Position numbers and translations under genes: made by a program. This document shows, piece after piece, positions 10,744-60,218 of a stretch of 64,000 nt of DNA. The stretch's first letter is position 1, and each line of letters starts with the position of its first letter. The notes beneath the pieces are model-generated. The model saw only the letters and a program-made list of their open reading frames with translations. It did not search any database and was not told the origin of the DNA. This stretch comes from Enterococcus mediterraneensis (GTDB taxonomy: Bacteria > Bacillota > Bacilli > Lactobacillales > Enterococcaceae), in the NCBI RefSeq assembly GCF_900604485.1, contig NZ_UWOP01000001.1, positions 191,001-255,000 of the forward strand, given 5' to 3'.

Positions 10744-10793
10744 CGTTATTCCTCCCATCTTTTCTGTGAGATCTTTTTCATCCCACAAAATAA

Positions 10794-10823
10794 ATTATAC
10801 AACTTTGGTCAATTTTGGTCAAA
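10794..10823 (-). promoter_or_regulatory. clpB promoter with CtsR operator
   Basis: On the plus strand GGTCAAT-TTT-GGTCAAA (10807-10823) matches the CtsR heptad repeat (RGTCAAA-N3-RGTCAAA). Read on the minus strand, TTGACC of the second heptad is the -35 box and TATAAT at 10799-10794 the -10 box, spacing 17. Repressor binding would occlude the promoter. Confidence 0.88.
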
Positions 10824-10826
10824 AAA

Positions 10827-10860
10827 AATCTCTGAAACAAAACGTTTGTTTCAGAGATAA
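10827..10860 (-). terminator. Terminator after the UPF0104 gene
   Basis: ATCTCTGAAACAAA and TTTGTTTCAGAGAT form a 14-bp stem followed by eight T on the minus strand. It ends seven bases from the gene end and insulates the clpB promoter. Confidence 0.88.
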
Positions 10861-45490: not shown

Positions 45491-45506
45491 GTGAAAAGTT
45501 TTCATT
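45491..45506 (+). repeat. attL
   Basis: GTGAAAAGTTTTCATT, identical to 60203-60218 in the same orientation. The core TGAAAA-G-TTTTCA is palindromic, as in tyrosine recombinase crossover sites. Confidence 0.85.
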
Positions 45507-45560
45507 TTTTCTATTGGTAAAGGAACCTTAATATATCAACGATCAGAGGTGATAAAATAG

Positions 45561-45584
45561 AAACCAGTTTAGAAATAGTTTAGA
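45561..45584 (+). repeat. Integrase arm-type sites, left end
   Basis: AAACCAGTTTAGA (45561-45573) and the near copy TAGTTTAGA (45576-45584). The same element occurs twice at the right end. Confidence 0.6.
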
Positions 45585-45710
45585 CTCATTTGTTTTTAAT
45601 AACTTTATAACCTTAATTTAACCGAAGAAATATTGGTAAATCAATTATCAACCTTATGTAAAATAACACTTTTATAGAAAAAATGCAAATGTGTGGGACG
45701 AAAACAAGGA

Positions 45711-45742
45711 AAAAGCTATGTCAAGTTGTGACATAGCTTTTA
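45711..45742 (-). terminator. Terminator of the left-end regulator gene
   Basis: AAAAGCTATGTCA / TGACATAGCTTTT, 13-bp stem with a short loop and T-rich tail. It stops island transcription from running into typA. Confidence 0.85.
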
Positions 45743-45758
45743 TAATAGTAAGAAACTA

Positions 45759-46085
45759 TCATTTATTTAATTTTTTTGTTGATTTTAAGAGGTTTAAAAT
45801 CAAAACTTTCTGCTCATCAGACAGCGAGAAATAGATTTCAATAAGTTCTTTGGTATCTTTCTCGGCTGGATCAATTAAAGAAAAGAAACTTTCTAAACTT
45901 ATATCTAATACATGAGTGATCGAGTAAAGTGTTTGGACACTGATGTTCTTTTCACCTCGTTCGATTGCCCCAACATGATTTGTGGAGTGTTTCGATAGTT
46001 CAGCTAATTTCATTTGCGACAAATTTTTTTCAAGTCTTAACTTTCGAATCAGACTACCAATTTTTTTATTCAAATTCTGAGTCAC
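45759..46085 (-). CDS. XRE-family transcriptional regulator
   Basis: 108 residues with an N-terminal helix-turn-helix (IRKLRLEKNLSQMKLAELSKHSTNHVGAIERGEKN) and a short C-terminal helical part. The start is GTG at 46085, with GGGAGGGG five bases upstream; the ORF extends five codons further without support. It is divergent from the lipoprotein gene, and the ATTGAT-N12-ATCAAT repeat over that gene's promoter spacer (46151-46174) is a candidate operator. Confidence 0.85.
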   Translation of the reverse strand: MTQNLNKKIGSLIRKLRLEKNLSQMKLAELSKHSTNHVGAIERGEKNISVQTLYSITHVLDISLESFFSLIDPAEKDTKELIEIYFSLSDEQKVLILNLLKSTKKLNK

Positions 46086-46150
46086 TTTATCCCCTCCCAC
46101 TCTTTTAAATGTTATCCAAAGTTAGAAGAAATATACACCATCTAAAAAGT

Positions 46151-46180
46151 ATTGATTTATACGTTTTCATCAATTAAAAT
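46151..46180 (+). promoter_or_regulatory. Promoter of the island lipoprotein gene, with inverted repeat
   Basis: TTGATT (46152-46157), 17-base spacer, TAAAAT (46175-46180). Arms ATTGAT (46151-46156) and ATCAAT (46169-46174) bracket the spacer. Confidence 0.6.
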
Positions 46181-46206
46181 AGTTAATGAAAGAAGGGAGA
46201 GTTAAG

Positions 46207-46821
46207 ATGAAAAAAGTTATTTTGGGGATATTGTTAGTTTTATTTGTTTCTGGTTGTTCAACAGCCAAGACAGCGGAATCAAAAAGCAAGGAATCAAGTA
46301 CAGAAATTAGTCAAAGTTCTACAATTGAAAGTAGCGAAACAGAGAGTAGTTCTACAATAGAATCAACTTCCGAAGAAGAAGTTAAATATAAAATGTACTC
46401 TTACAAAACTTTAGACCCAGATAATCTGATAGCGACTACTACTAATGAAGCACATGAAAAAAATTTGGAAGTAGATGAAATACTAAGAAGCACGTACTGG
46501 GGAGATCAATATGATGTATATTACGACGCTACGTTTGACACTGATGGAGCAGTTAAACTAGTTAACCTGAAACTTGAAGCTGATATTTTTACAAAAACAA
46601 TTGTAGACGCTGCAAGTGGTGATGAAGTTTCTTATAGACTCTGGAAAGATGGTTTCGTAAATAAGTTTGTCTCAATCTCTGAAAAATTGGGTATGGTCTC
46701 TTTTGCTGTCTATTTTCCAGATTCCGAAGATAAATTTTTGTTCCAAGCAATCGAAGGAAATGTATTAGTAGACGCTGTAGAAGAGGCTCGTGCCGCTGGT
46801 TACTCAAAAAATGATTATTAA
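46207..46821 (+). CDS. Island-encoded lipoprotein
   Basis: 204 residues. Signal peptide with lipobox FVSGC, then a Ser/Glu/Thr-rich spacer (~20-60), then a ~140-residue domain with YYDATFDTDGAVKLVNLKLEADIF and a charged C-terminus. GGGAGA before the ATG at 46207 fixes the start. I do not recognise the domain. Phage- and satellite-encoded surface lipoproteins often block DNA injection by other phages (the Ltp type), so superinfection exclusion is a reasonable guess from context alone. It is the only plus-strand cargo gene and has its own regulator. Confidence 0.8.
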   Translation: MKKVILGILLVLFVSGCSTAKTAESKSKESSTEISQSSTIESSETESSSTIESTSEEEVKYKMYSYKTLDPDNLIATTTNEAHEKNLEVDEILRSTYWGDQYDVYYDATFDTDGAVKLVNLKLEADIFTKTIVDAASGDEVSYRLWKDGFVNKFVSISEKLGMVSFAVYFPDSEDKFLFQAIEGNVLVDAVEEARAAGYSKNDY

Positions 46822-46824
46822 AAG

Positions 46825-46861
46825 AAAACAACCGCTGATTTTTATAGTCAGCGGTTGTTTT
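46825..46861. terminator. Bidirectional terminator
   Basis: AAAACAACCGCTGA / TCAGCGGTTGTTTT between the lipoprotein gene and the convergent structural operon. Confidence 0.92.
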
Positions 46862-47826
46862 TATTCAAATTTTACAGACTCAAGTTCTACTCTATCGATT
46901 CCATTATCAAAAACGGAAGAAATTTCAATAGGCAAACTTTCAATTTCAACGCTTTCGCTGGCTGTCATAAAGGCTTCGTTTTCTTTAAGAATAGGTTCAT
47001 CAAAACCCCACTCCCATTCTTTTGAAAAAGTGGTAATCTTATAGCCTTTGAAACTGTCCGAGTACTCAGCTTTCAGTTTTTCAGCAGTAAATATCAATAT
47101 ACCATCTTCAAAGCTTAAAAACTCAACATTGCTCTTTCCTTGCGATGGTAACAAAGCAACGCTCCCATCGCTAACGCTAAATGCGCTCTCGTCAATCAAC
47201 TCTTGCCAATTTTCAGGACAATTTGCGATACCAGCTATCAAGTTGTCTGTCGCTTGCGATGGAATAAGCTGGGCTGTAATGTCTAAGATTCCTTTATTTG
47301 CTGTAGATATGCCAGCTATTTTGAAGGTTCGATGACCGAACACTATCCGCTCGTCTAATAATTGTAGAAGTGATTCTGTTTTCTCGTTGTGTGAAGTGAA
47401 AACATGAATTTCACTTTCTACATTTATTAGTTGCGATTGCTTATTATACGACAAGTTGAAATCTGCTGTTTGCGAAACAAGAACAGGAAGCTTAAGCAGA
47501 TATTTTAGTGGCTTATTCTCTAATTTTGAAAGATTAAAAATTATATCATGCTCGATCCGTTGCATTTTTGCTTTATAACTTTCATATCTTTTTGAAACTT
47601 GATTAGTGATAAGCCAAAAATCACTTTCGTATTTTACTAGATCACCGCGTCCAGTTTGGTGTAGCGTGATTAAAAATTTACTATCATAGTCTTTCACGCT
47701 GACTTCATTGGTCACGAGAGCGCGTTCAGACAGTCCGTTACGGTAAATTGTAGACCCTCGCCAGTCTAAGATGGCTCTGAGGTCGTTTTCAGGCGTGTTT
47801 TGCTCGAAAATATTCATCGTAGGCAT
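46861..47826 (-). CDS. Probable head-tail connector or neck protein
   Basis: 321 residues, last gene of the minus-strand structural run. The middle has GRGDLVKYESDFWLITNQVSKRYESYKAKM, a pattern seen in head-completion or stopper-like proteins (a small beta-barrel carrying the tail interface), and RTFKIAGISTANKGILDITAQL later. The C-terminal ~100 residues look beta-sandwich (EISSVFDNGIDRVELESVKF). I infer a head-closure or neck role from position and pattern; not established. GAGGTG precedes the ATG by eight bases. Confidence 0.5.
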   Translation of the reverse strand: MPTMNIFEQNTPENDLRAILDWRGSTIYRNGLSERALVTNEVSVKDYDSKFLITLHQTGRGDLVKYESDFWLITNQVSKRYESYKAKMQRIEHDIIFNLSKLENKPLKYLLKLPVLVSQTADFNLSYNKQSQLINVESEIHVFTSHNEKTESLLQLLDERIVFGHRTFKIAGISTANKGILDITAQLIPSQATDNLIAGIANCPENWQELIDESAFSVSDGSVALLPSQGKSNVEFLSFEDGILIFTAEKLKAEYSDSFKGYKITTFSKEWEWGFDEPILKENEAFMTASESVEIESLPIEISSVFDNGIDRVELESVKFE

Positions 47827-47838
47827 ATTTTTATCACC

Positions 47839-48531
47839 TCAATTCCTAAACAAGTTGAAAAAGCTAGTAGGCTCGTTAGTGTCTGGCATTGATTGAATTG
47901 TGTTGGTCAATTGATTGATACGACTTTGTAAAAATTTAGCGAATGAGGATATATTCATATCGTCTTGTTTGTAGTTTTTCATAGTCGCTGGATTGTTTGC
48001 GATGGATTGCAAAACGCTGAGAGCTGTTTGATATATCGCCTTTTTTTGCGCTGGGATTGCTGGGTTGTATTCTTCTGTTGCTGATAGTCCGTTTTCAGCT
48101 AGATAGATTGTCGCTTGATCATCGACTAGTGTAATGCCTTCTATTTCCATCTTTAGACGATCGATTATTTTCATATTGAAATACTCCTTCTTTGCGCCTA
48201 GCTCATAACAAACTAGGACTAATTTATTTATGTAATTGTCTATTTTTTCTAAAAAAATTGGTTCGTGATTGTAATAAATACGTCCATCATAAGCCAATAA
48301 AAATTCATGAGAACACATGTTGCGTTCGATGATCGTGAAACCTCTCAAAAGTCTACCATTACTATCTTCTGACTCAATTTGATATATCTGAAAATCAGTG
48401 ATCGACATCATATTATAGATTTTTTGAAAAATTAGAGGCACGATAAGGTCGTAAATGTCTGTAGTCAGATAGGCTTTTGTCTCAATTGGTCTTAAAGATG
48501 GATAGTTTTGATATATTTTTTCTAATTGCAT
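47839..48531 (-). CDS. Hypothetical phage structural protein (possible connector)
   Basis: 230 residues. A beta-rich N-terminal part (ITDFQIYQIESEDSNGRLLRGFTIIERNMC) is followed by helices, ending in MNISSFAKFLQSRINQLTNTIQSMP. No family recognised. Its place, 13 bases before the probable neck gene and on the same strand as portal and terminase, suggests a head-tail adaptor. GGTGAG before the ATG. Confidence 0.5.
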   Translation of the reverse strand: MQLEKIYQNYPSLRPIETKAYLTTDIYDLIVPLIFQKIYNMMSITDFQIYQIESEDSNGRLLRGFTIIERNMCSHEFLLAYDGRIYYNHEPIFLEKIDNYINKLVLVCYELGAKKEYFNMKIIDRLKMEIEGITLVDDQATIYLAENGLSATEEYNPAIPAQKKAIYQTALSVLQSIANNPATMKNYKQDDMNISSFAKFLQSRINQLTNTIQSMPDTNEPTSFFNLFRN

Positions 48532-49300
48532 TGGCTCACCTTTTTTATTTTTTTCGCGCGAGAAATTTTAGGTAACCTTGTGAATGGTCTGCTCGTGTTG
48601 GGGTAACTGTCTTTTTCCTTCGTTTGTATGTATCTAGTTCTCAAACGTCATTTTAAAAGCATTTAAAGGCTATTTTAAAGCCTTTTAATGCTAATTAGAT
48701 AGTTATCCTATCTGTCAGACGGCAAGGCTCTAGCGCGCTGTCATAAAGTTTTAAAATAGACGATAAAACCGAAATTTTATTGGGTTTACTGGTTTAAAAC
48801 AGCTTGAAAATATGCTAGAAACGTTGATATATTAGCGTTTCTATACCTAAATATTTTTGCTGATAATGAAAATAAATAACAATTCAGCAATTTCAATAAA
48901 TTATGAAAACAAAAGAATTTCACAATGTACCGAAACACAAGAAACGCGATATATCAAGCTTTCATAATGTATACCAATCTAATTTCACAGCTCAAATCGC
49001 TCAAACCCTTGAGGCGTAAGGTACTTCATTTAAGATGGGTTATGTAAACCAGCGCTTTATATCTCCTTAAAATAACGATTAACGAGATATAATAAGAAGA
49101 AACAACACTGATAAACGCTGATAGTGTGGGCTTATGATAGCTAACACTCTTTTTTTTGTAGAACGTCACGCTTCAATCTTAATAAAAGTAAAGGCGAAAA
49201 ATTTTCAATAGTATTTATTTTTATGCAACTATTAATCTAGCAACGATTAAAAGCATACAATTAAATTACTGTACAACCTTTTGTACATAGTAATAAATCA
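48532..49300. other. 769-bp gene-free region inside the structural operon
   Basis: No ORF of 60 codons or more in any frame. It holds several hairpins: GCATTTAAAGGCT/AGCCTTTTAATGC (48659-48691), AGATAG-TTATC-CTATCT (48697-48713), AGAAACG/CGTTTCT (48817-48842) and a bulged ATTACTGTACAA/TTGTACA..GTAAT repeat (49265-49294) just after portal. It is unusually long for a compact element. Confidence 0.7.
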
Positions 49301-50614
49301 TTACTCAACTACTAGATTACTCTCTCTGCTATTCTCAGCATTAATCTTTCTAAGTTCTTCATGACTACTTTGCTGTAGCAATGGTGCAAGATCAATGATG
49401 GTTTCCTTCGATATAGCTCCCATTTCCGAAAGCGATTTGAGATTATCAATCACATCTTTTTCGTTTATCGGTCTAGCGTAGTGGAATACTAAATCAAGAT
49501 CATGGATATTTTGCCCTTCGACTGTCTTTCCTTGAAGATCAAGCAAACGCTCAATAATCTCAAAGCGTTTCTCGAAACCATTTCTCAAAAATCTCTCATT
49601 CATTGACGCTTTCATATCTGAAAGTGTAAACAGCAATTTCATACTAACTTCACTGAGATTCGAAACATCAGTGTTATTCAAACTTACTGCTGGCGTACTC
49701 GAAATGTTTAGCAATTCTTGTTTTAGAGTTTTGTAAATCGTTTCAAATGCTTTCTCGTTAACTGAGTTTGATACCATTTTGAAGTCTGATCCATCATCAA
49801 GAACAAGCCCTTCACCAACTAAATTTTGGTTGATTCCTTCACCTTTCAGTTGCTGACCGATGACAACAGGGATAGGGTTGTGGAATTTGTAAAAGCTGTC
49901 ACTAAATTTAGATAGTAAATCTTCCATATTATCAATTATGTTAAGAAAATCTGCTAAATCAGACTTGCCAAACACTTTATCCAATTCATTATCATTGCGA
50001 TAGTGTATGGGAAGACCAGATACATTGTTATAACGGTCTATTCTTCGTAGATCGTTACCACCGATATTAGACCATTTCTCCACTTTCTCTGGATAATAGA
50101 TAATGTAAAAATCACTTTCCAAAGCTTCGAAGGCTTCAACAAAAGCAATCATTTCAAGAGTCTCATTATAGATCGGAAACGCATTTTCACTTTCAATGAC
50201 CTTCGATTTGATTTTGTCATTATCGATATAAATATATTCATAGCTATCACCGAATTTTATTAAACGCGAAAGCAATTCATAATCAGACTTGTTGAAGCTT
50301 CCTTCTTTGTAAACACGTTTAAATCGCTCTGATAGTTCTTCTTTTCCAACTATCGTGACAGGATTTTTCAATAAGTAACTAGTTTCGAGATTCGCGATCA
50401 ACTTAGCGTATTGCAACATCACTTTTCGAGATTCATACGGACGATTATTGTACATCTCTACGCCCCTATTCATGATCGCATGCTTGCCTTCAAGATAATT
50501 TTTCATTTTTAAGACATCAGCAATTCTTCTTTGTTTTTCGTAGTGATTAACCTCATCTAAAAACCATAGAGGATTACCATTATGTATAATTTTTATATAT
50601 TCTTTAATATTCAT
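49301..50614 (-). CDS. Phage portal protein, SPP1 gp6 type
   Basis: 437 residues, slightly short for the family. The SPP1-like portal pattern is seen in YARPINEKDVIDNLKSLSEMGAISKETIIDLAP (C-terminal crown region), NNTDVSNLSEVSMKLLFTLSDMKASMNERFLRNGFEKR and the N-terminal KNYLEGKHAIMNR. It forms the twelve-subunit ring through which DNA enters the head. Follows terL by 16 bases. Confidence 0.9.
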   Translation of the reverse strand: MNIKEYIKIIHNGNPLWFLDEVNHYEKQRRIADVLKMKNYLEGKHAIMNRGVEMYNNRPYESRKVMLQYAKLIANLETSYLLKNPVTIVGKEELSERFKRVYKEGSFNKSDYELLSRLIKFGDSYEYIYIDNDKIKSKVIESENAFPIYNETLEMIAFVEAFEALESDFYIIYYPEKVEKWSNIGGNDLRRIDRYNNVSGLPIHYRNDNELDKVFGKSDLADFLNIIDNMEDLLSKFSDSFYKFHNPIPVVIGQQLKGEGINQNLVGEGLVLDDGSDFKMVSNSVNEKAFETIYKTLKQELLNISSTPAVSLNNTDVSNLSEVSMKLLFTLSDMKASMNERFLRNGFEKRFEIIERLLDLQGKTVEGQNIHDLDLVFHYARPINEKDVIDNLKSLSEMGAISKETIIDLAPLLQQSSHEELRKINAENSRESNLVVE

Positions 50615-50630
50615 TTATTTGTCACTCCTT

Positions 50631-52202
50631 CTAAACATACCATTTTTTCGCTTTCTTTCCTTGAGTCGCCAATGCCAGCGCAATGACTAAGTCATCATGT
50701 AACCCTTGTCCATTCATGTTCCCCGTTTTTCCATTTGATTCTTGAAATATTTGCATTTCTTCCAACGTATCGCGATCATTGACTAGTATTTCATCAAGTT
50801 CGAAAGCCTCTTTCAAGTCAGAAATAAGCGTTGCTTTATTACTTGCGGTTGTACTCCAACCTAATTTCATGCGCTTTCTGCCTGTTTGTTGGTCAAATAG
50901 CTTCATCTTATAGATGTTCATGTAAAGATACTCTCTACGTAATTTTTCTAGCAGCGGAGTACCAAAACTGTTACGCTCAATGACTAAAAAGGCATAATTA
51001 TATAAGCGACCTAATTCATTAATAATCTTCGCAAAACGATAAACTGGAGTTCGATTATCTTTAAATCTAGCTACTTGCTTACCTTCATCATCAAGAACAC
51101 TAATCGTAGAATTATCGCCACCACTTCCCCCAGCAACATCGACACCAAAATAATATTTCGCATTTTTTCTAGGCAAATCATACACAAACAAGCTTCCATT
51201 TGACACAAGAGACAGTAACTCTTGTTGCAAATGCAAACTAACAGCGCTATATTCTATTTTTTTTGGTAAGTGATTCAAGCGCTCACTGACTTTAGATTGA
51301 TCGAAAACACTGAAACCTGTCGATATGAAGCTCTCATGCAAGTTTGAAGGAAATTCTTGTTTGAAATCGCGATCGCTCATATCTAATTTTTTAAATTGTC
51401 GCCACATCAACAAGCGCAAAGTAGCGCCTTTTTCAAAGAGCAATTTCTCTTCATTATTCAAATCTTTTTCACTGAGCAACTCTTTCATACTTGCCTTATA
51501 CCATGCCACCGCTTCATCAATCTCAATCTTAAATTGTTGAGCTGTAGCCTTAGAGTACCAAGGGAAGAAAAATAGCTTATACTTTGATAGTCCTTTTTCT
51601 GCTGATGTAGCAAGCTTTTGAAAATGATTAAAGCCATTCGAAGTACTTTCTACCGTCAATATAGCTTCTTCCGACTTAGAAAGAGCTTGCTCTACTGACA
51701 ACAAGAGCTTTTCTTGATTGCTGTAGAAAGCTAACTCGCTGAGATGAACTCCCAAAAAGTTACCGCCTCGTGCCACGTCTTTATTGCCAGCGACCGAAAG
51801 CGTAATGGTAGAACCATTCTCAAAACTGAGCTTATTTTTATTTGAGTGTTTAATCTTCGAAAATTTAAACTTATCACGAGGAATACTATCATTCATCGCC
51901 TTCAAACGCTCAAAAAGAATTGTACTTGATTCAAGCTTATAGGAAACTATCAAGTAGTTAGTTCTTGCTTTAGTCAAAGCCATGTACAAAAACAGCCCCA
52001 ACATGAGCGTACTCATTCCTAGTTGACGAGATTTAGCAATCAAGTTATATCTCGTTCGATATTCTAAAAACTCTTTCTGTTGCTGATTGACAATAAAGGG
52101 AACGTATTTTCCTTCATTATCAACGATCTTTACAAAGTTTTTCAGCCATAGCGTAGGATCAGCATTTATTTTTTCTAATTTTTTTGCTGTTGATAATGTC
52201 AT
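50631..52202 (-). CDS. Terminase large subunit
   Basis: 523-residue packaging motor. Walker A-like LIAKSRQLGMSTLML, Walker B LGVHLSELAF, and the C-terminal nuclease with GVDVAGGSGGDNS, VIERNSFGTPL and LHDDLVIALALA are all intact. The start codon overlaps terS by four bases. Both packaging subunits being present means the island can recognise and package its own DNA, unlike SaPIs, which reuse the helper's large terminase. Confidence 0.93.
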   Translation of the reverse strand: MTLSTAKKLEKINADPTLWLKNFVKIVDNEGKYVPFIVNQQQKEFLEYRTRYNLIAKSRQLGMSTLMLGLFLYMALTKARTNYLIVSYKLESSTILFERLKAMNDSIPRDKFKFSKIKHSNKNKLSFENGSTITLSVAGNKDVARGGNFLGVHLSELAFYSNQEKLLLSVEQALSKSEEAILTVESTSNGFNHFQKLATSAEKGLSKYKLFFFPWYSKATAQQFKIEIDEAVAWYKASMKELLSEKDLNNEEKLLFEKGATLRLLMWRQFKKLDMSDRDFKQEFPSNLHESFISTGFSVFDQSKVSERLNHLPKKIEYSAVSLHLQQELLSLVSNGSLFVYDLPRKNAKYYFGVDVAGGSGGDNSTISVLDDEGKQVARFKDNRTPVYRFAKIINELGRLYNYAFLVIERNSFGTPLLEKLRREYLYMNIYKMKLFDQQTGRKRMKLGWSTTASNKATLISDLKEAFELDEILVNDRDTLEEMQIFQESNGKTGNMNGQGLHDDLVIALALATQGKKAKKWYV

Positions 52203-52570
52203 AACATCAACCCATCGTCTGAGCTATCCTCAACGGTAATTTTTTGCTTCGTCATTGATTTTAATTCTTTCGATAAAGTCAAAAACAATTTGATAGATTT
52301 TTCATCACCATTTTTTGCTTTTTCACTGACTGAATCATATATCTCAAAAAAATCATTATTGGCAATGGAAGCATATCTCAAAGCTTTCAATCTTTGAAAT
52401 TCTTCCGTTTTTTCCCAGTTTTTGTAGTAATCTATATTCTTTGTTCTTATAAAATTACAGAAATGATCCATTGTAATTGGTTGGTCTGTCTTTCGGACAT
52501 CGGGAAACAACATTTCAAAATACATCTTCTTCTTTATTGATAATTTCTTAATTTCATCTTTAATATCCAT
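52199..52570 (-). CDS. Terminase small subunit, phBC6A51 type
   Basis: 123 residues. PDVRKTDQPITMDHFCNFIRTKNI followed by EEFQRLKALRYASIANNDFFEIYDSVSEKAKNGDEKSIKLFLTLSKEL matches small terminase proteins of phBC6A51-like phages, with a helix-turn-helix-like N-terminus. It would bind the island's pac or cos site. Start supported by GAGGG. Confidence 0.78.
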   Translation of the reverse strand: MDIKDEIKKLSIKKKMYFEMLFPDVRKTDQPITMDHFCNFIRTKNIDYYKNWEKTEEFQRLKALRYASIANNDFFEIYDSVSEKAKNGDEKSIKLFLTLSKELKSMTKQKITVEDSSDDGLML

Positions 52571-52579
52571 TTATTGCCC

Positions 52580-53728
52580 TCATCTCATCTGTACAAAATC
52601 AATTAAAAAACTATAGATTTGCACATACTCTTTATATTTTTTTGCCTTGAAATCAGCTTTTTCTTGATACATTGCCGTTTCAATATGGGATAACTCTTCA
52701 TCAAGCGCACGATTGTACATTTTTCCACCTTCAAAAGAACTTTCACGATATAATCTCTGATTAGTATCTCTAATTTCTTCTTCATACGTTAAAAGATTTT
52801 CACGTTTTTTGGCATTTTCGAGTAATCGATTCTTTAATAAATCATTCACTAGAGTTTGCAAATATTCTTTATCACACTTGATATACTCAATTTTTGAAGT
52901 ATCAAATATTTGAAAACCATCATACATAAACAGACAATCAAACTCAGTCTGTGCCATTTCTTTAATCGCTTTTTCGCATTCTAACTCACGTTTTTGTGCC
53001 TTCATCTTTTTACGACTGAATTGCTCTCTAATTTGCTGTTTTCTTTCTTTATATTTATTGAAAATTTTTTCGTCAACTTCTAAAAATATTTTCTTCTCAT
53101 CAGTTGATAAAGAAACAGCGACAAATACTTTCTGAATATCCGCTTTATCTTTAAATTCGCGAACAAGTCTATTCGCTTCTTGTGTGATTTGCTCATTGAA
53201 AAAGCGGTAAAAATCAGCGGCAAGAACAGCCAAATCATAATTCAAACGTTTTTTACTTCTTAAAGTTTTGAAGTAGAATCGATTATTTTTTTCTTTCAAA
53301 ACTTCAACGATTTTATCTCGGTATCTATCGACCTTTAGAAATATACTACTTTGACGTAATAGCTCAGTTTTAGTATATGTTTTTCCTTTTTCAAAAAAAG
53401 GCAACGCATTATTAAAGAGTATAGCTGTATACTCAGACCACTCAGCTTTTTTCTTATGGTGTCCTCGCTGATCTTCGATAATATCAGAGTCATCAAAAAT
53501 GGGCTTTTCTAACTCAAAATATGGTTCGTTTTTTCCTTTTTTTCCAGCCACATATCTAACTGATCCAGCTTTTTCGCTCAGTTTACTGATAATTTTATTT
53601 TTAGTATCAGTTTGCAAATAGAATTTTTTATCACTCATAACTGCTGACTGATACTTTTCTTGAACTTTATTTCCTACAAATTTTGTGTATAGGGAATTTG
53701 TCATTAATTCGCTTAAAGTTATATTCAT
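52580..53728 (-). CDS. Unknown 382-residue island protein
   Basis: Highly charged, Lys/Glu-rich, mostly helical with a likely coiled-coil at ~215-260 and at the C-terminus. The region KAEWSEYTAILFNNALPFFEKGKTYTKTELLRQSSIF is a distinct, less charged N-terminal domain. I recognise no family. It lies between capsid and terminase genes, where satellites commonly keep interference or capsid-remodelling genes, so a helper-directed function is possible. Start uncertain: ATG 53728 (GAGG ten bases before) or 53737. Confidence 0.6.
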   Translation of the reverse strand: MNITLSELMTNSLYTKFVGNKVQEKYQSAVMSDKKFYLQTDTKNKIISKLSEKAGSVRYVAGKKGKNEPYFELEKPIFDDSDIIEDQRGHHKKKAEWSEYTAILFNNALPFFEKGKTYTKTELLRQSSIFLKVDRYRDKIVEVLKEKNNRFYFKTLRSKKRLNYDLAVLAADFYRFFNEQITQEANRLVREFKDKADIQKVFVAVSLSTDEKKIFLEVDEKIFNKYKERKQQIREQFSRKKMKAQKRELECEKAIKEMAQTEFDCLFMYDGFQIFDTSKIEYIKCDKEYLQTLVNDLLKNRLLENAKKRENLLTYEEEIRDTNQRLYRESSFEGGKMYNRALDEELSHIETAMYQEKADFKAKKYKEYVQIYSFLIDFVQMR

Positions 53729-53745
53729 CAGATTCATACCTCAAC

Positions 53746-53940
53746 TTATTTACTTTCAAAAAAATCATTATATCTTTTAAGCGCAATTTTCAACTCTTGA
53801 CTCCGTTCAAAGAGCCAATATTCTTGATTACTTTTGATTGTCAAAGCATGTGTTATAAAATTAAAGCCTTGTTGTTTGAGCCATGCTGTCTTAGCTCCGT
53901 TGTAACAGAAATAAAAATCTTTGTTAGTTAGTTTATTCAT
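53746..53940 (-). CDS. Small hypothetical protein, possibly DUF5659-like
   Basis: 64 residues. KDFYFCYNGAKTAWLKQQGFNFITHALTIKSNQEYWLFERSQELKIALKRYN resembles small satellite/phage proteins annotated DUF5659; I am not certain. AAGGGA lies about ten bases before the ATG at 53940. Ends nine bases before the gene above. Confidence 0.55.
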   Translation of the reverse strand: MNKLTNKDFYFCYNGAKTAWLKQQGFNFITHALTIKSNQEYWLFERSQELKIALKRYNDFFESK

Positions 53941-53958
53941 TAAAATTCTTCCCTTCAT

Positions 53959-54186
53959 TATTGTTGTAGTTTTTAGCTGTTTAGATAAATAGTATTTTTA
54001 GTATTTATATAAACAGTCAAGAACTACAACAAAAATTTTTGCATACAGTATTAAGATCAAAAGCCTACCGCGCTACTTACGATTTTGCTTCGCAAGAATC
54101 GTGCGGACGCTTGGTACAAATATTTGCTCGCTTTTAGCAAGCTAAAAACTCACAAAATTTGTGATTACTTTTATTTTCTCTCTGTC
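53959..54186. other. Gene-free region with several strong hairpins
   Basis: 54,060-54,180 contains a series of stems, among them ACGATT-(TTGC..GCAA)-AATCGT (54078-54102) and TTGCT/AGCAA (54123-54140), and is more GC-rich than the neighbouring island DNA. Candidate structured RNA or replication/transfer signal; see findings. Confidence 0.5.
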
Positions 54187-54435
54187 TTAAAAAGTTACTA
54201 TATCACTTTCAATAATAGGTATAGACCTATAATATTTTCTAATGTACTTACGTAACTCACTGTTATTTTCATAAACGGCAAGTGCCGATCCTTTTTCGGA
54301 ACGTACGATTGTAATATAATCAATACCAATTTTTTCAAGATACAAAACTAATTCGTAATCATACACATATTTAAATTTTCTAACTCGTGTAATCTGTTCC
54401 AGATATCTAAGTTCGATTTTCTGCTTCCAATCCAT
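54187..54435 (-). CDS. Hypothetical protein, 82 residues
   Basis: Begins MDWKQKIELRYLEQITRVRKFKY and contains ELVLYLEKIGIDYITIVRSEKGSALAVYENNSELRKYIRKYYRS. No family recognised. Overlaps or abuts the HTH gene, with which it may form a pair. Start could be further upstream (GTG 54444 or TTG 54471). Confidence 0.5.
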   Translation of the reverse strand: MDWKQKIELRYLEQITRVRKFKYVYDYELVLYLEKIGIDYITIVRSEKGSALAVYENNSELRKYIRKYYRSIPIIESDIVTF

Positions 54436-54454
54436 CGATATCACGCTCGCTTCA

Positions 54455-54643
54455 TTATTTTTTGTTATCAATATAGTTTTCGTACGCTTTTACACGCTCA
54501 TTATCAAAAAGATATTTTCCATTTTCGAACCGAGATATGACTGTGCGTGCTACGTGTAGTGCTTGAGCTAACTCTTGTTGCTTTATATTTTTTCGCTTTC
54601 GTAGCGCTACATAAAACTCTCGTCTAGTTATGTTTTCGTTCAT
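54455..54643 (-). CDS. Small XRE/Cro-type DNA-binding protein
   Basis: 62 residues, a single helix-turn-helix: LRKRKNIKQQELAQALHVARTVISRFENGKYLFDNERVK. AGGAG eight bases before the ATG. A Cro-sized regulator placed inside the structural region, just after capsid; it may control the genes downstream of it (toward terminase). Confidence 0.78.
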   Translation of the reverse strand: MNENITRREFYVALRKRKNIKQQELAQALHVARTVISRFENGKYLFDNERVKAYENYIDNKK

Positions 54644-54771
54644 GTCGTTTTCTCCTTTTTTTCGTACATTTGTTCTTTTTCATTTTTTTGAGAGAGGACG
54701 CTATCACACGCCCTCAAAAATAAAGGAAAGAAAAATATATGATATAAACACAAGAATTGTGTGGGTAGCTG

Positions 54772-55647
54772 CTATTCTGCTGTTGTCGTGTCTAGCACAG
54801 CAACAGATTTTTTTGATCCTACTTCTAATGTCGCTTCTAGCAATACCATGCCTTCTAGATTGTCTCCGCGTTTTCCAAGAGGTTCATAATGAGGTTGGCG
54901 GCCTTTTAAGAATTTGATAGACAACTGATCTAAATCGAAGAGGACAGCTTTTTCAGAAGGCATGTAGCGGTCAAGTACTACGTTAATAACTCCGTAATTA
55001 GTTTCGATCTTGTTTACTAACAGACCAAAATCGTTTGTCTTTGCTGGATAGAAATACTTATCTTTATATAAGCTATCTAGCTCTTCTTTGATATCAGCAT
55101 TAACGAAGAGATAAAGATTTTCACCTTCAAAACCTTGGTTCCAAAGTTTTCTAGCTAATTCTTTGATCGCTGTTTCAGAAACTGGTTCTTGCACTAGATT
55201 TTCAGAGTCAGCAAACTCAATTAAGCCCGACATTTTACGTGGTTTTCCGTCTGATCCATCGTTTTTTGTGGAAGTCAAAAGCGCTTTTTCAAGGTCTGCT
55301 TTGACTTCAATCAAGCGATCATTAATTTCAGAAGCGAATAGATCACCGACTTTTTCAGTAGCTTGCGCTGTACCAGAAACTTTGACTGTCTTAGATAGAA
55401 TTTGCAATACATTTGAAAGTTCAGCACGATTCGAGTGAACGCCTTCCCCAGCCTCTGCTCCTTCTTGTGCTAAAGACTCACTTGTATCGAGTGTACGCTC
55501 ACGCCATGAGTGAATTTTAGCGCCTGTTTCGCTATTGCCTTTTTTAGATAAAAGTAGAGTTGCAAACGGGGTTTGCTTTGGCGCTACTAGATGAATCTCA
55601 TCACTGAGATAGATATTTTCTTGTGTAGTTAGATTAGTTGTATTCAT
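54772..55647 (-). CDS. Major capsid protein, SU10/DUF5309 type
   Basis: 291-residue HK97-fold protein of the SU10/DUF5309 family (PF17236): the N-terminal TPFATLLLSKKGNSETGAKIHSW, the KVSGTAQATEKVGDLFASEINDRLIEVKADLEKALL spine region, and FYPAKTNDFGLLVNKIETNYGVINVVLDRYMPSEKAVLFDL are typical. No prohead protease gene is nearby and no N-terminal delta domain is seen, so the shell probably matures without cleavage. Follows the scaffold gene by 17 bases. Confidence 0.88.
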   Translation of the reverse strand: MNTTNLTTQENIYLSDEIHLVAPKQTPFATLLLSKKGNSETGAKIHSWRERTLDTSESLAQEGAEAGEGVHSNRAELSNVLQILSKTVKVSGTAQATEKVGDLFASEINDRLIEVKADLEKALLTSTKNDGSDGKPRKMSGLIEFADSENLVQEPVSETAIKELARKLWNQGFEGENLYLFVNADIKEELDSLYKDKYFYPAKTNDFGLLVNKIETNYGVINVVLDRYMPSEKAVLFDLDQLSIKFLKGRQPHYEPLGKRGDNLEGMVLLEATLEVGSKKSVAVLDTTTAE

Positions 55648-55664
55648 TTTATGTATGTCTCCTT

Positions 55665-56162
55665 TTATTGATTGATCTTAGTTCTCAACATGCTTAATAC
55701 GTCTCTATTTTTAACAGCTTGAGAGTATTGACTTGCGCTATTGTGATCTGAGGGTTTGTATGAGTTATTTAATTTTCGCTTGTTGACAAGCTCTTTTAAT
55801 TTGTTGACTTGCTCAATCAATTCAGCTTCATTAGTTGCATGAATCAGTGGTGCAAAATCTTCTAAACCCTCTGATTTAAGCTCTAATTCAACTTGACGAT
55901 CAAACAGCGCTTGTTCACGCGCTGAGAATTCAGCTTCACGATCTGTTGCTGGATCGTCTGTTACTTGATCTTCATCGACTATTTCAGTTTCTTGCGCTGA
56001 CGTTTTAGCTTGTACAAGCTGTTGAACTTGCTCCTGTAGCTGTTTTACTTGTTCTTCCAGTGAGGCTTCTGTTTGCTCTTCAACATCTTCAACCGTCTCA
56101 GTATTATCGACTGTTTCAGTTTCTTCGTTTTCGTCTTCAATTTCTTTGATATCTTTTTTCAT
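55665..56162 (-). CDS. Probable scaffolding protein
   Basis: 165 residues, very acidic N-terminus (EIEDENEETETVDNTETV), a central coiled-coil (EEQVKQLQEQVQQLVQA), and a C-terminal helical, basic tail (KRKLNNSYKP...). This layout and position directly before the capsid gene are typical of phage scaffold proteins, such as the DUF4355 type. Scaffold length can set the size of the head. Confidence 0.75.
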   Translation of the reverse strand: MKKDIKEIEDENEETETVDNTETVEDVEEQTEASLEEQVKQLQEQVQQLVQAKTSAQETEIVDEDQVTDDPATDREAEFSAREQALFDRQVELELKSEGLEDFAPLIHATNEAELIEQVNKLKELVNKRKLNNSYKPSDHNSASQYSQAVKNRDVLSMLRTKINQ

Positions 56163-56527
56163 ATATTTTCAGCTCCTTTTCAAAATCGTTTTCATTTTTG
56201 TTCATAAACAAAGAAGCTCTTCCAGCAGAAAAGAGCTTCTTTGAGTAAATGGAAGGACAAAAGAGCCGTCCTCAAACGGTATCTTTTGTGTGCTATCAGT
56301 AAGTAAATAGCACGAGTTTTAAGAGAAAATCATATTAAGCGAGTACGATTTCCAAAAATAAAATATGAGAGAGAGAAAGCCCTCACATCTATATTATAAA
56401 TATAACATACATTTCCATACCTGTCAAAAAAAGAACTTTTGTTCATTATCCATTAAACAGCTCTATATAAGTATTTAAAAATAAAAAAATTAAAAAAATA
56501 GTTGCATTTAAATAACGATAAAACGTG
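56163..56527. other. Gene-free spacer between replication and head genes
   Basis: Three hairpins in tandem: AAGAAGCTCTT/AAGAGCTTCTT (56211-56241), AGGAC/GTCCT near 56252-56270, and GTGCTAT/ATAGCAC (56291-56314). The first can terminate minus-strand transcription from rep. The rest is AT-rich with a possible plus-strand TGTTATAAT at 56527-56534. Confidence 0.55.
56211..56241 (-). terminator. Terminator-like hairpin between rep and scaffold
   Basis: 11-bp perfect stem AAGAAGCTCTT / AAGAGCTTCTT followed by TGTTT on the minus strand. It would separate early replication from late head genes, or act as a site for antitermination. Confidence 0.6.
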
Positions 56528-57412
56528 TTATAATACCTTATCGGATTCTACAAAAAACTTGTAACTTAAATCGATCGCTGGTAGCTGTTTGCTTTGCTTT
56601 TGCAATCTTTCTGCTGTCACACGGTCTCTAACACCGTTGAGAAAATATGTTGCTGGTGCAATGATCTGCTTATTTTTCATTGATTCGATCTGGGCTGTAA
56701 TGATTTCTTGTGATGGTTTAAGAGCTGTCTTATCTAACTCAAAGATGATTTTATAAATATCAGTCACAGAAAATACTTTAAACGTGTCTAAAAATTTGAA
56801 AAATGGTGATTCGTGTACACGCGTTTTATTCTCTTCTTCTCTTTTATCTCTTGGTTTTACTAGATTAGTATTACTAGCGTCCAAATCTTGCGCTACTATG
56901 TCCAAATTTTGATCTACTTTGCCAAAAAAAAGTGGTTCATTTTCTGAACTACTATCGTCAACTAGTTCAATATTTGAGATACCTTTATTTTCAACTGGTT
57001 CAGATTTTGCACTACCTTTTTCAGCCGTTTTATTTTCTGAACTATCTTTATCCTCGTATTTGTCGTCATCTGTTAAAACTGGATGATGCAAATATAGATG
57101 ATTCGCTCGTCCTTTACCTCTTTTCTCTTCTTCTAGCAAGTTAGCAGCAACCAGCTCACTTTTGACTTTCAAAGCTGTATTTTTTGATACCCCTAGCTCC
57201 TCAGCTAGTTCTGAAACAGAAAAGATAAAATAAATCTCACCTTCTTTATTTGTCCAAACGTTTTTTTGAGATACGTTTAAACGATCTTTGAGTAAAGCAT
57301 ATGCAACTTTCGCATCGTTGCTGAGAGATTTATATAGACTGCTTTTAAATAAAAATTTTGGTAACTGAAAGTACTTTACTTTTTCTTCTATGTCGTTTTT
57401 TGAGTATCTCAT
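56528..57412 (-). CDS. RepA_N-family replication initiator
   Basis: 294 residues. The N-terminal RepA_N domain (PF06970) reads FQLPKFLFKSSLYKSLSNDAKVAYALLKDRLNVSQKN and contains a winged-helix (FSVSELAEELGVSKNTALKVKSELVAANLLEEEKRG). A variable, Ser/Glu-rich middle (~115-195) and a conserved C-terminal half follow. The family starts theta replication of enterococcal and staphylococcal plasmids, with the origin inside the middle of the gene. Near-repeats in the DNA there (TTTTCTGAACTA at 56940 and 57033; CAACTNGTTCA at 56959 and 56992) fit iterons. AGAGGAG supports the ATG. Confidence 0.88.
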   Translation of the reverse strand: MRYSKNDIEEKVKYFQLPKFLFKSSLYKSLSNDAKVAYALLKDRLNVSQKNVWTNKEGEIYFIFSVSELAEELGVSKNTALKVKSELVAANLLEEEKRGKGRANHLYLHHPVLTDDDKYEDKDSSENKTAEKGSAKSEPVENKGISNIELVDDSSSENEPLFFGKVDQNLDIVAQDLDASNTNLVKPRDKREEENKTRVHESPFFKFLDTFKVFSVTDIYKIIFELDKTALKPSQEIITAQIESMKNKQIIAPATYFLNGVRDRVTAERLQKQSKQLPAIDLSYKFFVESDKVL

Positions 57413-57427
57413 CTCGAATCGCTCCTC

Positions 57428-57522
57428 TTGATTTTTTATTGAGCGATGATAAAATGTATTTGTAGATTACAGTTTTATCATCATCAACCGCCGAATAGCC
57501 CCAACTATTCGGCGGTCTTTTT
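57428..57522 (+). ncRNA. Probable countertranscribed RNA against the rep leader
   Basis: Promoter TTGATT (57428-57433), 16 bases, TGATAAAAT (-10 TAAAAT 57450-57455), expected start near 57462. An intrinsic terminator ends the transcript: perfect 12-bp stem ACCGCCGAATAG / CTATTCGGCGGT with loop CCCCAA (57486-57515) and TTTTTT at 57517-57522. No plus-strand gene is upstream, so the terminator must serve this ~60-nt RNA, antisense to the 5' leader of rep. The complementary leader loop TTGGGG contains a YUNR (UUGG) kissing motif. Confidence 0.65.
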
Positions 57523-57591
57523 TATATAATTTTCTCGTCCCACACGTCTTTTGGAATACATTTGCTTTTTTATAACAGTTTTTGCTTTGGA

Positions 57592-57846
57592 CTAAACCCG
57601 ATGACTACGCATGAACTCATCGCAATCGTCTTTTGATATTCGTAGCATGCCATCAACCATGATAACTTTTAGACCGTTTTTGATGTATTTATTCATCAAA
57701 GTCAGATAACCGACATTCAGATATTCTTGTGCTTGCGTTTTCGTCATATAGAATGGCAGTTCTTCGCGCTTCTGATAAAGTTTTATACCTTCATTTACCG
57801 CTTCTCGAATTTCTTCTGAAATTTTAAAAGCTATTTCTTCATTCAT
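57592..57846 (-). CDS. Excisionase-like DNA-binding protein
   Basis: 84 residues with a helix-turn-helix of the MerR/excisionase kind: FYMTKTQAQEYLNVGYLTLMNKYIKNGLKVIMVDGMLRISKDDCDEFMRSHRV. It is divergent from the CI-like repressor with a 161-base shared control region, the arrangement of alpA/xis-type activators in PICIs. AAGGAG before the ATG. Confidence 0.75.
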   Translation of the reverse strand: MNEEIAFKISEEIREAVNEGIKLYQKREELPFYMTKTQAQEYLNVGYLTLMNKYIKNGLKVIMVDGMLRISKDDCDEFMRSHRV

Positions 57847-58007
57847 TAGATAAGCTCCTTCTTCCTTTTATCATTACAATTATTTATAGAAATAACTATA
57901 AATATCTGTTAAAAACAATATAAAACAAAAGAAAATAAAAATCAATAGTTTTTCTGGTATTTTCTATAATTATTTATTATAATATATAGTAGGAGGTGGA
58001 ATATACT
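57847..58007. promoter_or_regulatory. Divergent control region of Xis and repressor
   Basis: Contains the palindrome TTTATAG-AAATAA-CTATAAA (57883-57902), a probable repressor operator, and a TATAAT at 57978-57983 serving the repressor gene. It is the lysogenic switch of the island. Confidence 0.6.
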
Positions 58008-58661
58008 TTGAACAAGCAAAAAAAGAAAGTGCCTGATAAAAAAAATCTTGAAGTCGCTCAACGAATTAAGATGATCAGAAAAGAAACTGGATTAAGTGCT
58101 AAAGATTTCGCCAAAAAAATTGATGAAACTGCAAGTTATGGTGCTGTCAGCAATTGGGAAAATGGCTATAACCTTCCAAATAACAGGCGTCTAAAGCGTA
58201 TTGCTGAAATTGGTGGAGTATCAATTGAATATCTGCTAAATGGTACAAGCGAAGAAGATTATATTGAGCAAGCAAGACAAATAAATGATGATCAATTTAA
58301 CGCAATATTAAACTCGTCTATCGAGAACAGCCAACTAATAAAAGTTGCTCGAAACTTTCAACGATCTGCTGAGCTCGCTCAGTTGGAAGAATTTTTTGCG
58401 ATTGATGATGATCTCGTGAAGATAATCAATTATCTTGATGATCTTTTCTATCAAAAGAAAGATTATGATTATACAGAAAAATATCTCGAATTTGTTGAAA
58501 CTATTGTCACCTTATTGCAACAAGCTGGTGAGATATCTGAGTTTCGTAACACCGAGGTACTTGATTTTGAGAACAAAAAATATCAAGAAAAGTTTCCTAA
58601 AATTGTATTTGAGGTTATAGAAGAACTTTTTGAGGAAAAAGAAGAAGAAGATCAAGATTGA
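58008..58661 (+). CDS. CI-like XRE repressor
   Basis: 217 residues: N-terminal helix-turn-helix (IKMIRKETGLSAKDFAKKIDETASYGAVSNWENGYNLPNNRRLKRIAEI) and a C-terminal acidic helical domain without a LexA-like Ser/Lys protease. It therefore lacks RecA-driven self-cleavage, as expected for a satellite that is derepressed by a helper protein (like SaPI Stl). Start is TTG 58008, AGGAGGTGG eight bases upstream; GTG 57996 overlaps that site. Confidence 0.85.
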   Translation: MNKQKKKVPDKKNLEVAQRIKMIRKETGLSAKDFAKKIDETASYGAVSNWENGYNLPNNRRLKRIAEIGGVSIEYLLNGTSEEDYIEQARQINDDQFNAILNSSIENSQLIKVARNFQRSAELAQLEEFFAIDDDLVKIINYLDDLFYQKKDYDYTEKYLEFVETIVTLLQQAGEISEFRNTEVLDFENKKYQEKFPKIVFEVIEELFEEKEEEDQD

Positions 58662-58817
58662 CAAATAAAAGTAGCTTCTTTTTTTAAACACAAGGATAAA
58701 CAAATAAAAGTTTCTTATATTTTTTACCCCTTAAGTTAAACAAATAAATGAATTGTAACTATAATTCACTCTCCCTCTTTCTCGTCCCACACACGCGATG
58801 AAAAGGAGATAAAAACA

Positions 58818-59975
58818 ATGGCAAAAGCATACAAATATGAAAAAAATGGTCAAACTTTCTGGCGAAAAAAAGGATATTTAGGTACTAATCCCCTGACTGG
58901 AGAGCAGAAAAACTTTAATCGAGGTGGCTTCAAAACGTCACGAGAAGCTGAACAAGCCTATTTAGACGCTAAACAGAATTTCATCAAGACTCGCGGAACT
59001 AATCTAAGAGGGACTACTTTTAGAGAAGTTTATGAGTTGTGGATCGAAACTGTTTACAAACACAAGGTAAGATCAGCTACACTTCTTTCGACAAAATCAA
59101 AATTCAAGAATCATATTCTTCCTAAGCTCGGCGATAAATTAATCGATAAGATCACCGTTGATGATATTCAAGACTTTGCGAACTACATTTATTATGACGC
59201 TAAGCACTCACAAGCTCGACTATTTTTGAACTACGTTAGCAATGTATTCGAATTTGCTCGAAAACGTAAGCTTGTGCAAAGTGATCCTGTTTTATTAATC
59301 GAAAAAATGAGAACTATAAGAAGCGAAAATGAAGGATCAAAAGAAAAGGAAACATATTTGTCCCCTAGTGATTTGAAGATTTTTTTGGAGGATTTGAAGT
59401 ACAATTGTAAATTCAACATTCGCGTTTTATTTTATTTGATTTTTGTAACTGGTATTCGAAATGGCGAAGCTATTGCTTTACAATGGAAAGACGTTGATTT
59501 TGAAAATAAAGTCCTACACGTCCGACACTCACGAACACGCGATGAAAACGGACATGACACGATCGGACTTACAAAAAACGGAAAGTCTCGGACTATTCCT
59601 TTATCGTCTACTGCTATCAGTCTTTTGGAAAAGTTACAGTATTTTAATAAACTGCAATTTAATCGAAAAAACTACGATCAGTTTAGAGATGACCTCGTTT
59701 TTCCATCGGATAAAGGTAAAATGTTACATCCATCGACTGTATATCTTCGACTAAAAAAGATCGAAAAAAGAACAGGATTGAAAGATTTACATCCTCATAA
59801 AATACGACATACCTTTACAACGTATTCGATTTCTCTAACTCAGAATGTAAAAGAAGTCAGCGAAATGCTAGGACACTCCGATGTAGCGTTCACATTAAAT
59901 GTCTATGCTGGGACTTCGAGTGAAGCAAAAGAAAGAATAGTTAACGAATTAGATAACATCATCCCAAAAATTTAA
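58818..59975 (+). CDS. int: Tyrosine site-specific integrase
   Basis: 385 residues, Tn916/phage-Int type. N-terminal arm-binding domain (KAYKYEKNGQTFWRKKGYLG), core-binding SAM-like domain (~60-165), and catalytic domain with Arg in VTGIRNGEAIAL, the HKIRHTF box, LGHSDVAFT and the nucleophile Tyr in NVYAG. AAGGAG precedes the ATG. It lies at the right end, 227 bases before attR. Confidence 0.95.
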   Translation: MAKAYKYEKNGQTFWRKKGYLGTNPLTGEQKNFNRGGFKTSREAEQAYLDAKQNFIKTRGTNLRGTTFREVYELWIETVYKHKVRSATLLSTKSKFKNHILPKLGDKLIDKITVDDIQDFANYIYYDAKHSQARLFLNYVSNVFEFARKRKLVQSDPVLLIEKMRTIRSENEGSKEKETYLSPSDLKIFLEDLKYNCKFNIRVLFYLIFVTGIRNGEAIALQWKDVDFENKVLHVRHSRTRDENGHDTIGLTKNGKSRTIPLSSTAISLLEKLQYFNKLQFNRKNYDQFRDDLVFPSDKGKMLHPSTVYLRLKKIEKRTGLKDLHPHKIRHTFTTYSISLTQNVKEVSEMLGHSDVAFTLNVYAGTSSEAKERIVNELDNIIPKI

Positions 59976-59993
59976 TTTGTAAAATAGAGCTCT

Positions 59994-60032
59994 AAACCAG
60001 TTTAGATTTTTGGATCGACCAGTTTAGATTTT
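59994..60032 (+). repeat. Integrase arm-type sites, right end
   Basis: AAACCAGTTTAGATTTT at 59994 and GACCAGTTTAGATTTT at 60017, spaced 23 bases, just after the integrase gene. The shared CCAGTTTAGA is also at the left end. Confidence 0.6.
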
Positions 60033-60115
60033 GAATCGAAAAGCTAAAAAATAAGCAAAAATAGATAGAAAATATACATTTTATTCTAATAATATTCAAA
60101 GATAAAAAAACAAAA

Positions 60116-60149
60116 GAAACGCCTAAAAACGTTGATTTAAAGGCGTTTC
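60116..60149. terminator. Right-end terminator
   Basis: GAAACGCCT / AGGCGTTTC with an A-rich left flank (T-rich on the minus strand, TTTTGTTTTTTT). It can stop transcription from the SuhB-like operon entering the island, and that of int. Confidence 0.7.
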
Positions 60150-60202
60150 TGATGTATTTTTGAATTGAACTAAAAATTAAAAAGATTCTTATTATACAAT
60201 TG

Positions 60203-60218
60203 GTGAAAAGTTTTCATT
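60203..60218 (+). repeat. attR
   Basis: Second copy of GTGAAAAGTTTTCATT, 38 bases from the end of the SuhB-like gene and 227 bases after the integrase gene. Confidence 0.85.

Follow-up and report, generated by a model that had tools for sequence, protein, structure and literature searches.

A 64,000-nucleotide stretch of the Enterococcus mediterraneensis genome (contig NZ_UWOP01000001.1, positions 191,001 to 255,000), referred to here as the window, contains an integrated island of about 14.7 kb that carries head and packaging genes of phage type. The island occupies window positions 45491-60218, measuring 14,712 bp from one attachment (att) site to the other plus one att copy, and has typA (43573-45414) to its left and an inositol-monophosphatase gene (60256-61029) to its right, both on the minus strand. 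In G003, which belongs to the same genus, the site is empty and the flanks are contiguous around a single copy of GTGAAAAGTTTTCATT. This genome matches the window up to position 45510 and again from 60203 onwards. When the window flanks were joined by script and compared with it, 319 of 389 columns were identical, the alignment passing through one repeat copy. The site also looks empty in G023, which is more distant than G003. The island is confirmed as real and its ends are exact. Its GC content is 33.6%, against 42.8% in the remainder of the window, and the open reading frames (ORFs) of its genes are intact. Copies of a second short repeat, AAACCAGTTTAGA, are candidate arm sites for the integrase (Table).

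Gene content of the island

The island contains 17 predicted genes. At its right end the repressor and integrase are encoded on the plus strand, while the minus strand carries, from right to left, genes for a xis-like helix-turn-helix (HTH) protein, a RepA_N initiator, a scaffold, the capsid, a 62-aa (amino acid) HTH protein, two DUF5659-like proteins, g08, the small (TerS) and large (TerL) terminase subunits, the portal, g04 and g03. The left end holds genes for a 211-aa lipoprotein on the plus strand and a 113-aa HTH protein on the minus strand.

The integrase, repressor, RepA_N initiator, SU10-type capsid, SPP1-type portal and large terminase named in the original prediction are all confirmed by profile, and the closest solved relative of TerL, found with the family profile, is T4 gp17 (3ezk, 4e-38). 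The scaffold, Xis and small terminase that it also named have homologues or weaker profiles behind them, and these names, like that of the adaptor, lean on position. The best terminase profile for TerS reaches only 0.069, with no significant named profile in Pfam, PHROGs or NCBIfam, and its supposed phBC6A51-type affinity was not borne out by any such hit. As for the connectors, g03 is supported by fold, its N-terminus matching neck and stopper proteins of long-tailed phages, and g04 by position. Since g03 is the last gene and has a stopper fold, the head is expected to end where a long tail docks. Between the portal and g04 lie 0.77 kb (48532-49300) without a credible gene, a place in which relatives carry variable genes.

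Pfam and PHROGs were searched with all 17 genes, and NCBIfam with seven of them plus three proteins from relatives. Among the 17, no match below E 1e-3 was to a tail, lysis, helicase, protease or HNH family, in agreement with the predicted lack of tail, lysis and helicase genes. The RepA_N initiator additionally matches helicase loaders, not helicases. Several names above that threshold were rejected as low-complexity or coiled-coil matches, namely a tape measure for the scaffold (0.022), endolysin/LysM (0.008) and spanins (0.04-0.2) for the lipoprotein, and Phage_blade for the repressor (0.012).

Table. Features of the island by window position, with the supporting matches and their E values; counts out of 47 refer to the family elements described in the text
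Feature	Position	Strand	Evidence or remark
att core repeat GTGAAAAGTTTTCATT, typA-side end	45491..45506		exact 16-bp direct repeat; empty site in G003 (locus L049)
putative integrase arm-type repeat AAACCAGTTTAGA	45561..45573		further copies at 59994 and, 11 nt, at 60018
HTH_3 regulator, 113 aa	45759..46100	-	HTH_3 1.5e-11
predicted lipoprotein, 211 aa, cargo	46186..46821	+	LPAM_1 8e-5
g03, 321 aa	46861..47826	-	head-tail stopper (head closure), second neck-like domain, FN3/Ig-like C-terminal domain
g04, putative head-tail adaptor, 230 aa	47839..48531	-	position; homologues in 47/47, partly by selection
portal, SPP1 gp6-like, 437 aa	49301..50614	-	SPP1_portal PF05133 3e-69; SPP1 portal 2jes 9e-18 by family profile
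large terminase, T4 gp17-type, 523 aa	50631..52202	-	PF17289 and PF03237; Terminase_6N 2e-5, Terminase_6C 2e-7
putative small terminase, 123 aa	52199..52570	-	position; homologues in 46/47
g08, 385 aa, no named family	52580..53737	-	position where several relatives have a replication protein
small DUF5659-like protein, 70 aa	53746..53958	-	weak Pfam match 8e-4, PHROG 21297 1.5e-8
DUF5659 protein, 94 aa (c64 family)	54187..54471	-	PF18903 4e-7; family HMM
small HTH regulator within head operon, 62 aa	54455..54643	-	HTH_3 2e-10; in 29/47
major capsid protein, SU10 type, 291 aa	54772..55647	-	SU10_MCP PF17236 4e-74
scaffold, 165 aa	55665..56162	-	PHROG 233 head scaffolding 0.003 (weaker); homologues in 47/47
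RepA_N/DnaD-like replication initiator, 294 aa	56528..57412	-	PF06970 1.6e-26, PHROG 7882 1e-25
xis-like HTH protein, 84 aa	57592..57846	-	HTH_17 0.0016 (weaker), PHROG 668 HTH protein 4e-15
master repressor (CI/Rpr-like), 221 aa	57996..58661	+	HTH_3 2.6e-11, PHROG 8 1e-15
tyrosine integrase, 385 aa	58818..59975	+	PF00589 3e-29, PF14659 3e-17
att core repeat GTGAAAAGTTTTCATT, suhB-side end	60203..60218		exact 16-bp direct repeat; empty site

Within the RepA_N gene there are three 21-nt repeats, at 56879-57018. A replication origin is expected inside genes of this type, and the repeats would fit one. A perfect 13-bp inverted repeat at 56209-56243, between the RepA_N and scaffold genes, is a possible terminator. 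For g08, no homologue was found among the fetched loci of relatives, and hhalign comparison with the relatives' replication clusters was negative. The lipoprotein might, as a guess, serve in superinfection exclusion.

A recurring family of elements

Relatives of the island are detected through its portal and terminase; capsid-only scans of genome-contig and viral-contig collections gave none. A portal search returned eight IMG/VR contigs at 47-54% identity, and a search with the portal alignment returned 24 loci. With TerL, 20 loci were found in named genomes, 14 of them with Bacillaceae-type genus names, together with 72 loci in IMG/VR, of which 71 are 42-58% identical and one (L129, 29%) is taken as an outsider to the family. 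Genes in the fetched stretches were called simply as the longest ORFs and labelled with hidden Markov models (HMMs) built from the family's own clusters, and the loci are partly redundant. The major capsid protein (MCP), TerL, portal and either g03 or g04 occur together in 65 of the 117 stretches examined after some had been dropped, and 47 of these 65, the window element included, also have an integrase within reach. At 95% portal identity the 47 elements form 36 clusters, at 80% they form 22, and from the integrase to the last core gene they span 11.0-16.9 kb. Capsid, TerL and portal are present in all 47 by selection, and selection accounts in part for g03 (in 41) and g04 (in 47). Outside the selection, the scaffold occurs in 47, TerS in 46, a protein family termed c271 in 43, the small HTH protein in 29 and a BhlA-type holin in 16. 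In a wider survey of other genomes the portal profile was matched at E<=1e-50 in 8 of 397 sampled in the class, in 4 of 397 in the phylum, one of them with an internal stop, and in 1 of 394 in the order (G151, E 3e-167), where eleven further genomes with partial portal matches (E 2e-14 to 6e-11) were not counted.

The relatives are also compact. Flanking direct repeats of 39-174 bp bracket the element at 11 of the 21 chromosomal loci tried, the other ten having no flanking repeat of that length, and several of the repeats look, by eye, like the 3' ends of tRNA genes. Together with the window element, the bracketed relatives give 12 elements of 13.4-18.1 kb with a median of 15.8 kb, a range in which larger elements could not show because the stretches were 20-22 kb long. 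Among 40 contigs checked, two, both from metagenomes, are closed by terminal repeats, L088 at 17,458 bp (83-bp repeat) and L125 at 16,355 bp (86-bp repeat). Both carry the same gene block, with an integrase in L088 and none labelled in L125, and their largest unlabelled ORFs, of 203 and 340 aa, are below tape-measure size. In the 11 bracketed relatives the largest unlabelled ORFs do not exceed 539 aa, below the common tape-measure length, and the one of 539 aa is helicase-like. When 100 of the 139 representatives of unlabelled ORFs were pooled with 17 family proteins, the scan of these 117 proteins gave no tail-named family among the 25 most-matched of 119 PHROGs.

The module is also remote from sequenced phages. 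The island has no megablast match among 50,697 phage records, and the best-ranked phage matches are at 24% for the portal (130 records matched), 30% for the MCP (116) and 30% for TerL (2,137), with all matches of the three proteins below 60% identity. As a control, the sole other capsid match in 147 genomes, that of the host included, is in G011 at 29% (locus L157), which has neck-size ORFs and a 974-aa ORF, like phage VEsP-1 with its 974-aa protein annotated as a tape measure. Nothing like this tape-measure-size ORF is present in the island. The two outcomes that the original prediction had named as speaking against it, the emergence of tail, tape-measure or lysis genes from the unknown ORFs and near-identity to a full prophage, did not occur in the family scans of the 17 genes below E 1e-3 and in the megablast comparison with phage records.

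Several features vary among the relatives. The c271 protein (L034:5088-5942) is about 270 aa long, adjoins the capsid gene and contains the conserved motifs sdD.DSl, vD and NHv in 63 sequences; it gave no convincing match to a family or solved structure, although by eye we take it to resemble DHH-type phosphoesterases. A BhlA/UviB-type holin gene lies near the scaffold gene in L034 (2987-3244), L030 (2986-3213) and others, Pfam BhlA being matched in the two members tested, and an endolysin was not noticed. Ahead of the scaffold, L030 (3206-5176) and L034 (1022-2972) encode a 115-aa protein (c115) and a large beta-rich protein containing GLUG motifs, along with a protein of PHROG 18294; these are possible particle-surface or host-binding parts. 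Gene order is permuted in L144 (G151) and L154 (G829), where the scaffold, and in L144 the capsid too, follows g03 rather than preceding the terminase. A second integrase-like gene, 29% identical to the window integrase, is found just outside the element at L146:16376-17530 and L147:18125-18718, and may belong to another island inserted next to it at this site. Finally, L046 and L047 have broken portal fragments of the family (~9971-10850) inside predicted proviruses of 62-65 kb, probably decayed satellites beside a prophage.

Interpretation and rival explanations

The island is probably a capsid-forming phage satellite that would borrow its tails, resembling the capsid-forming phage-inducible chromosomal islands (cf-PICIs) and laid out in the manner of PICIs. 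Its ends, its gene content without recognisable tail or lysis genes, the recurring family and the stopper fold of g03 are observed. The original prediction of a self-packaging, tail-borrowing satellite stands as far as it describes a small integrated head, packaging and neck element, the theft of tails being what we infer from this. Because the island has genes for building and filling a head, lacks recognisable tail and lysis genes and belongs to a widespread group, it most likely spreads in heads of its own that are fitted with tails from other phages.

In such a cycle the repressor would hold the integrated island silent. On induction, the integrase and the xis-like protein would excise it and the RepA_N initiator would copy it, while a small head of its own would be built from the scaffold, the SU10-type capsid and the SPP1-type portal. 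TerS and the T4-type TerL would then fill this head with island DNA, probably by a headful mechanism, as is suggested by the T4 type of the large subunit, and the adaptor and stopper would close the filled head. The long tail and cell lysis would be supplied by a helper phage. The host genome (2.70 Mb in 3 contigs) has two loci with siphovirus tail genes (Sipho_tail PF05709), L180 (G000:C1 2078000-2097999) and L181 (G000:C1 914000-933999). In one of these tail modules a 1132-aa ORF is in part 33% identical to the tape measure of VEsP-1. In the other, a 1271-aa ORF lies beside capsid- and neck-like genes and had no match in a small comparison; a search for PF10145 found nothing. The two prophage tail modules are candidate helpers for the island.

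A number of points weigh against this reading. Induction, head size, packaging mode, tail source and transfer are predicted from the genes, and a fold search with g04 gave no match. The island is a mosaic, since the family offers no close homologue of its integrase (at most 29% identity), repressor, xis, RepA_N, g08, g01 or g02. It may also be a reduced copy, as it lacks c271, present in 43 of the 47 elements, together with the holin, c115 and beta-rich genes that some relatives have. With a BhlA-type holin in 16 of the 47 and a helicase-like protein in one (L012), the absence of lysis and helicase genes is not a rule of the family. Three of the 20 TerL record titles lie outside the Bacillota (Chryseobacterium and two metagenome-assembled genomes), perhaps through misassignment. 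The capsid of a 60-kb plasmid of [Eubacterium] eligens (NC_012782.1, L182), a phage-like plasmid with portal, capsid, sheath, tube and baseplate genes, is 37% identical to that of the window and its closest tail-bearing relative, while several family members have capsids with no more than 22-25% identity to it. Capsid genes thus seem to have been exchanged, and it is the portal, TerL and neck that define the family.

A further point concerns g03, whose homologues in relatives hit PHROGs that carry the names major tail, tail and minor tail protein, each in up to 8 of 46 members and at best with 7.5e-25. These matches probably reflect shared Ig-like domains, since the PDB hits of the same g03 profile fall in the Ig-like part, and the window g03 itself has no match to tail-named PHROGs. 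Together with its own FN3/Ig-like domain they could be taken to mean that the island is a very small phage in its own right, whose short tail, built from g03, g04 and unknown genes, went unrecognised. Unknown ORFs do remain, and some relatives have the beta-rich protein or c115 (7 of 47 each) or the holin. However, the N-terminus of g03 matches the stoppers of long-tailed phages, which sit ahead of a tail and do not form one, the window has no beta-rich genes, holin or lysis enzyme, and the pooled scan brought up no tail-named family among its most-matched PHROGs. An autonomous phage is an improbable explanation.

Decay of a full phage through deletion of its tail and lysis modules would also leave phage-type genes without a tail in a small region, and could explain both the gene-poor stretch between portal and g04 and the genes that relatives possess and the window lacks. 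It is nevertheless unlikely, given that the same compact set recurs in the 47 integrase-bearing elements and their 36 clusters, that the att ends are exact and the ORFs intact, that two relatives are closed at 16.4 and 17.5 kb, and that no phage record is close to the module. With a portal and a terminase that turn up again across a widespread family, the island is not a prophage relic. Heads could, moreover, be made for some other purpose, as a decoy, gene transfer agent or bacteriocin-like particle, the element being moved only by generalised means. This would suit an island that does not encode a tail and whose transfer is so far deduced, but an element with an integrase, a xis-like gene, exact att sites and a terminase and replication initiator of its own looks self-mobile. 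The distribution is also wide, and this explanation is very improbable.

Beyond the satellite reading itself, it is tentatively proposed that the portal, terminase and neck module marks a lineage of capsid-building satellites that is old, spans the Bacillota and arose independently. It would combine an SPP1-type portal, a T4-type terminase, an SU10-type capsid that is occasionally exchanged, a separate scaffold and an FN3/Ig-bearing stopper, and may long have travelled as a 'head without a tail', joining itself to tails from unrelated phages, an idea prompted by the lack of close kin of portal and terminase in the sequenced phages searched. The window element would then be this module fused to a local PICI-type cassette of integrase, repressor and RepA_N. 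An island that resembles a prophage relic is now tied to a family found across the Bacillota. As the module ends in a stopper, it can be tested which helper tails fit and whether the FN3-bearing stopper decides this, and heads that accept foreign tails could move DNA between the hosts of different phages.

Comparison with known satellites

The gene arrangement is that of Gram-positive PICIs, in which int and the master repressor are described as running in one direction and xis and rep in the opposite one (PMC6092414). The island shares with the classical PICIs and Staphylococcus aureus pathogenicity islands (SaPIs) the integrase and repressor on the plus strand, the xis-like and RepA_N genes on the minus strand, a size near 15 kb and a defined att site; unlike them, described there as having no phage structural genes, it carries a head and packaging set (PMC6092414). 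EfCIV583 of E. faecalis is likewise a small island with integrase, repressor and replication genes, but this 12-kb element is listed without portal, head, tail, packaging or lysis functions, uses the capsids of phage P1 and integrates by a xanthine/uracil permease gene (PMC3675006, Table 1). The kinship with EfCIV583 that had been suggested for the island is not supported by these differences.

The Streptomyces satellites MulchRoom and MiniFlayer resemble the island in having their own head and packaging genes. They are described as having virulent helpers and no obvious replicase (PMC10690885), whereas the island has an integrase, a repressor and an initiator. A complete tailed prophage differs from it in having a recognisable tail tube, tape measure and lysis genes.

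The closest parallel is with the cf-PICIs, which are described as encoding capsid, maturation protease, portal, connectors, terminases and an HNH nuclease (PMC10690885). They are reported, with an average size of 14 kb, from enterococci and Bacillaceae among others (PMC10803314), so that the original statement that no described family was known went too far, and one has been predicted in Pseudolactococcus laudensis (PMC13335696). Like the cf-PICIs, the island has its own capsid, portal, large terminase, connectors and integrase, no tail family and a similar size, with a putative small terminase named by position and family homologues. Unlike them, as the group is described, it has a scaffold in place of the protease and HNH families; its SU10-type capsid and T4-type terminase also appear to set it apart. 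Since protease and HNH families were looked for in the island and not found, it is best regarded as a variant of the cf-PICIs rather than a proven member, being cf-PICI-like on paper.

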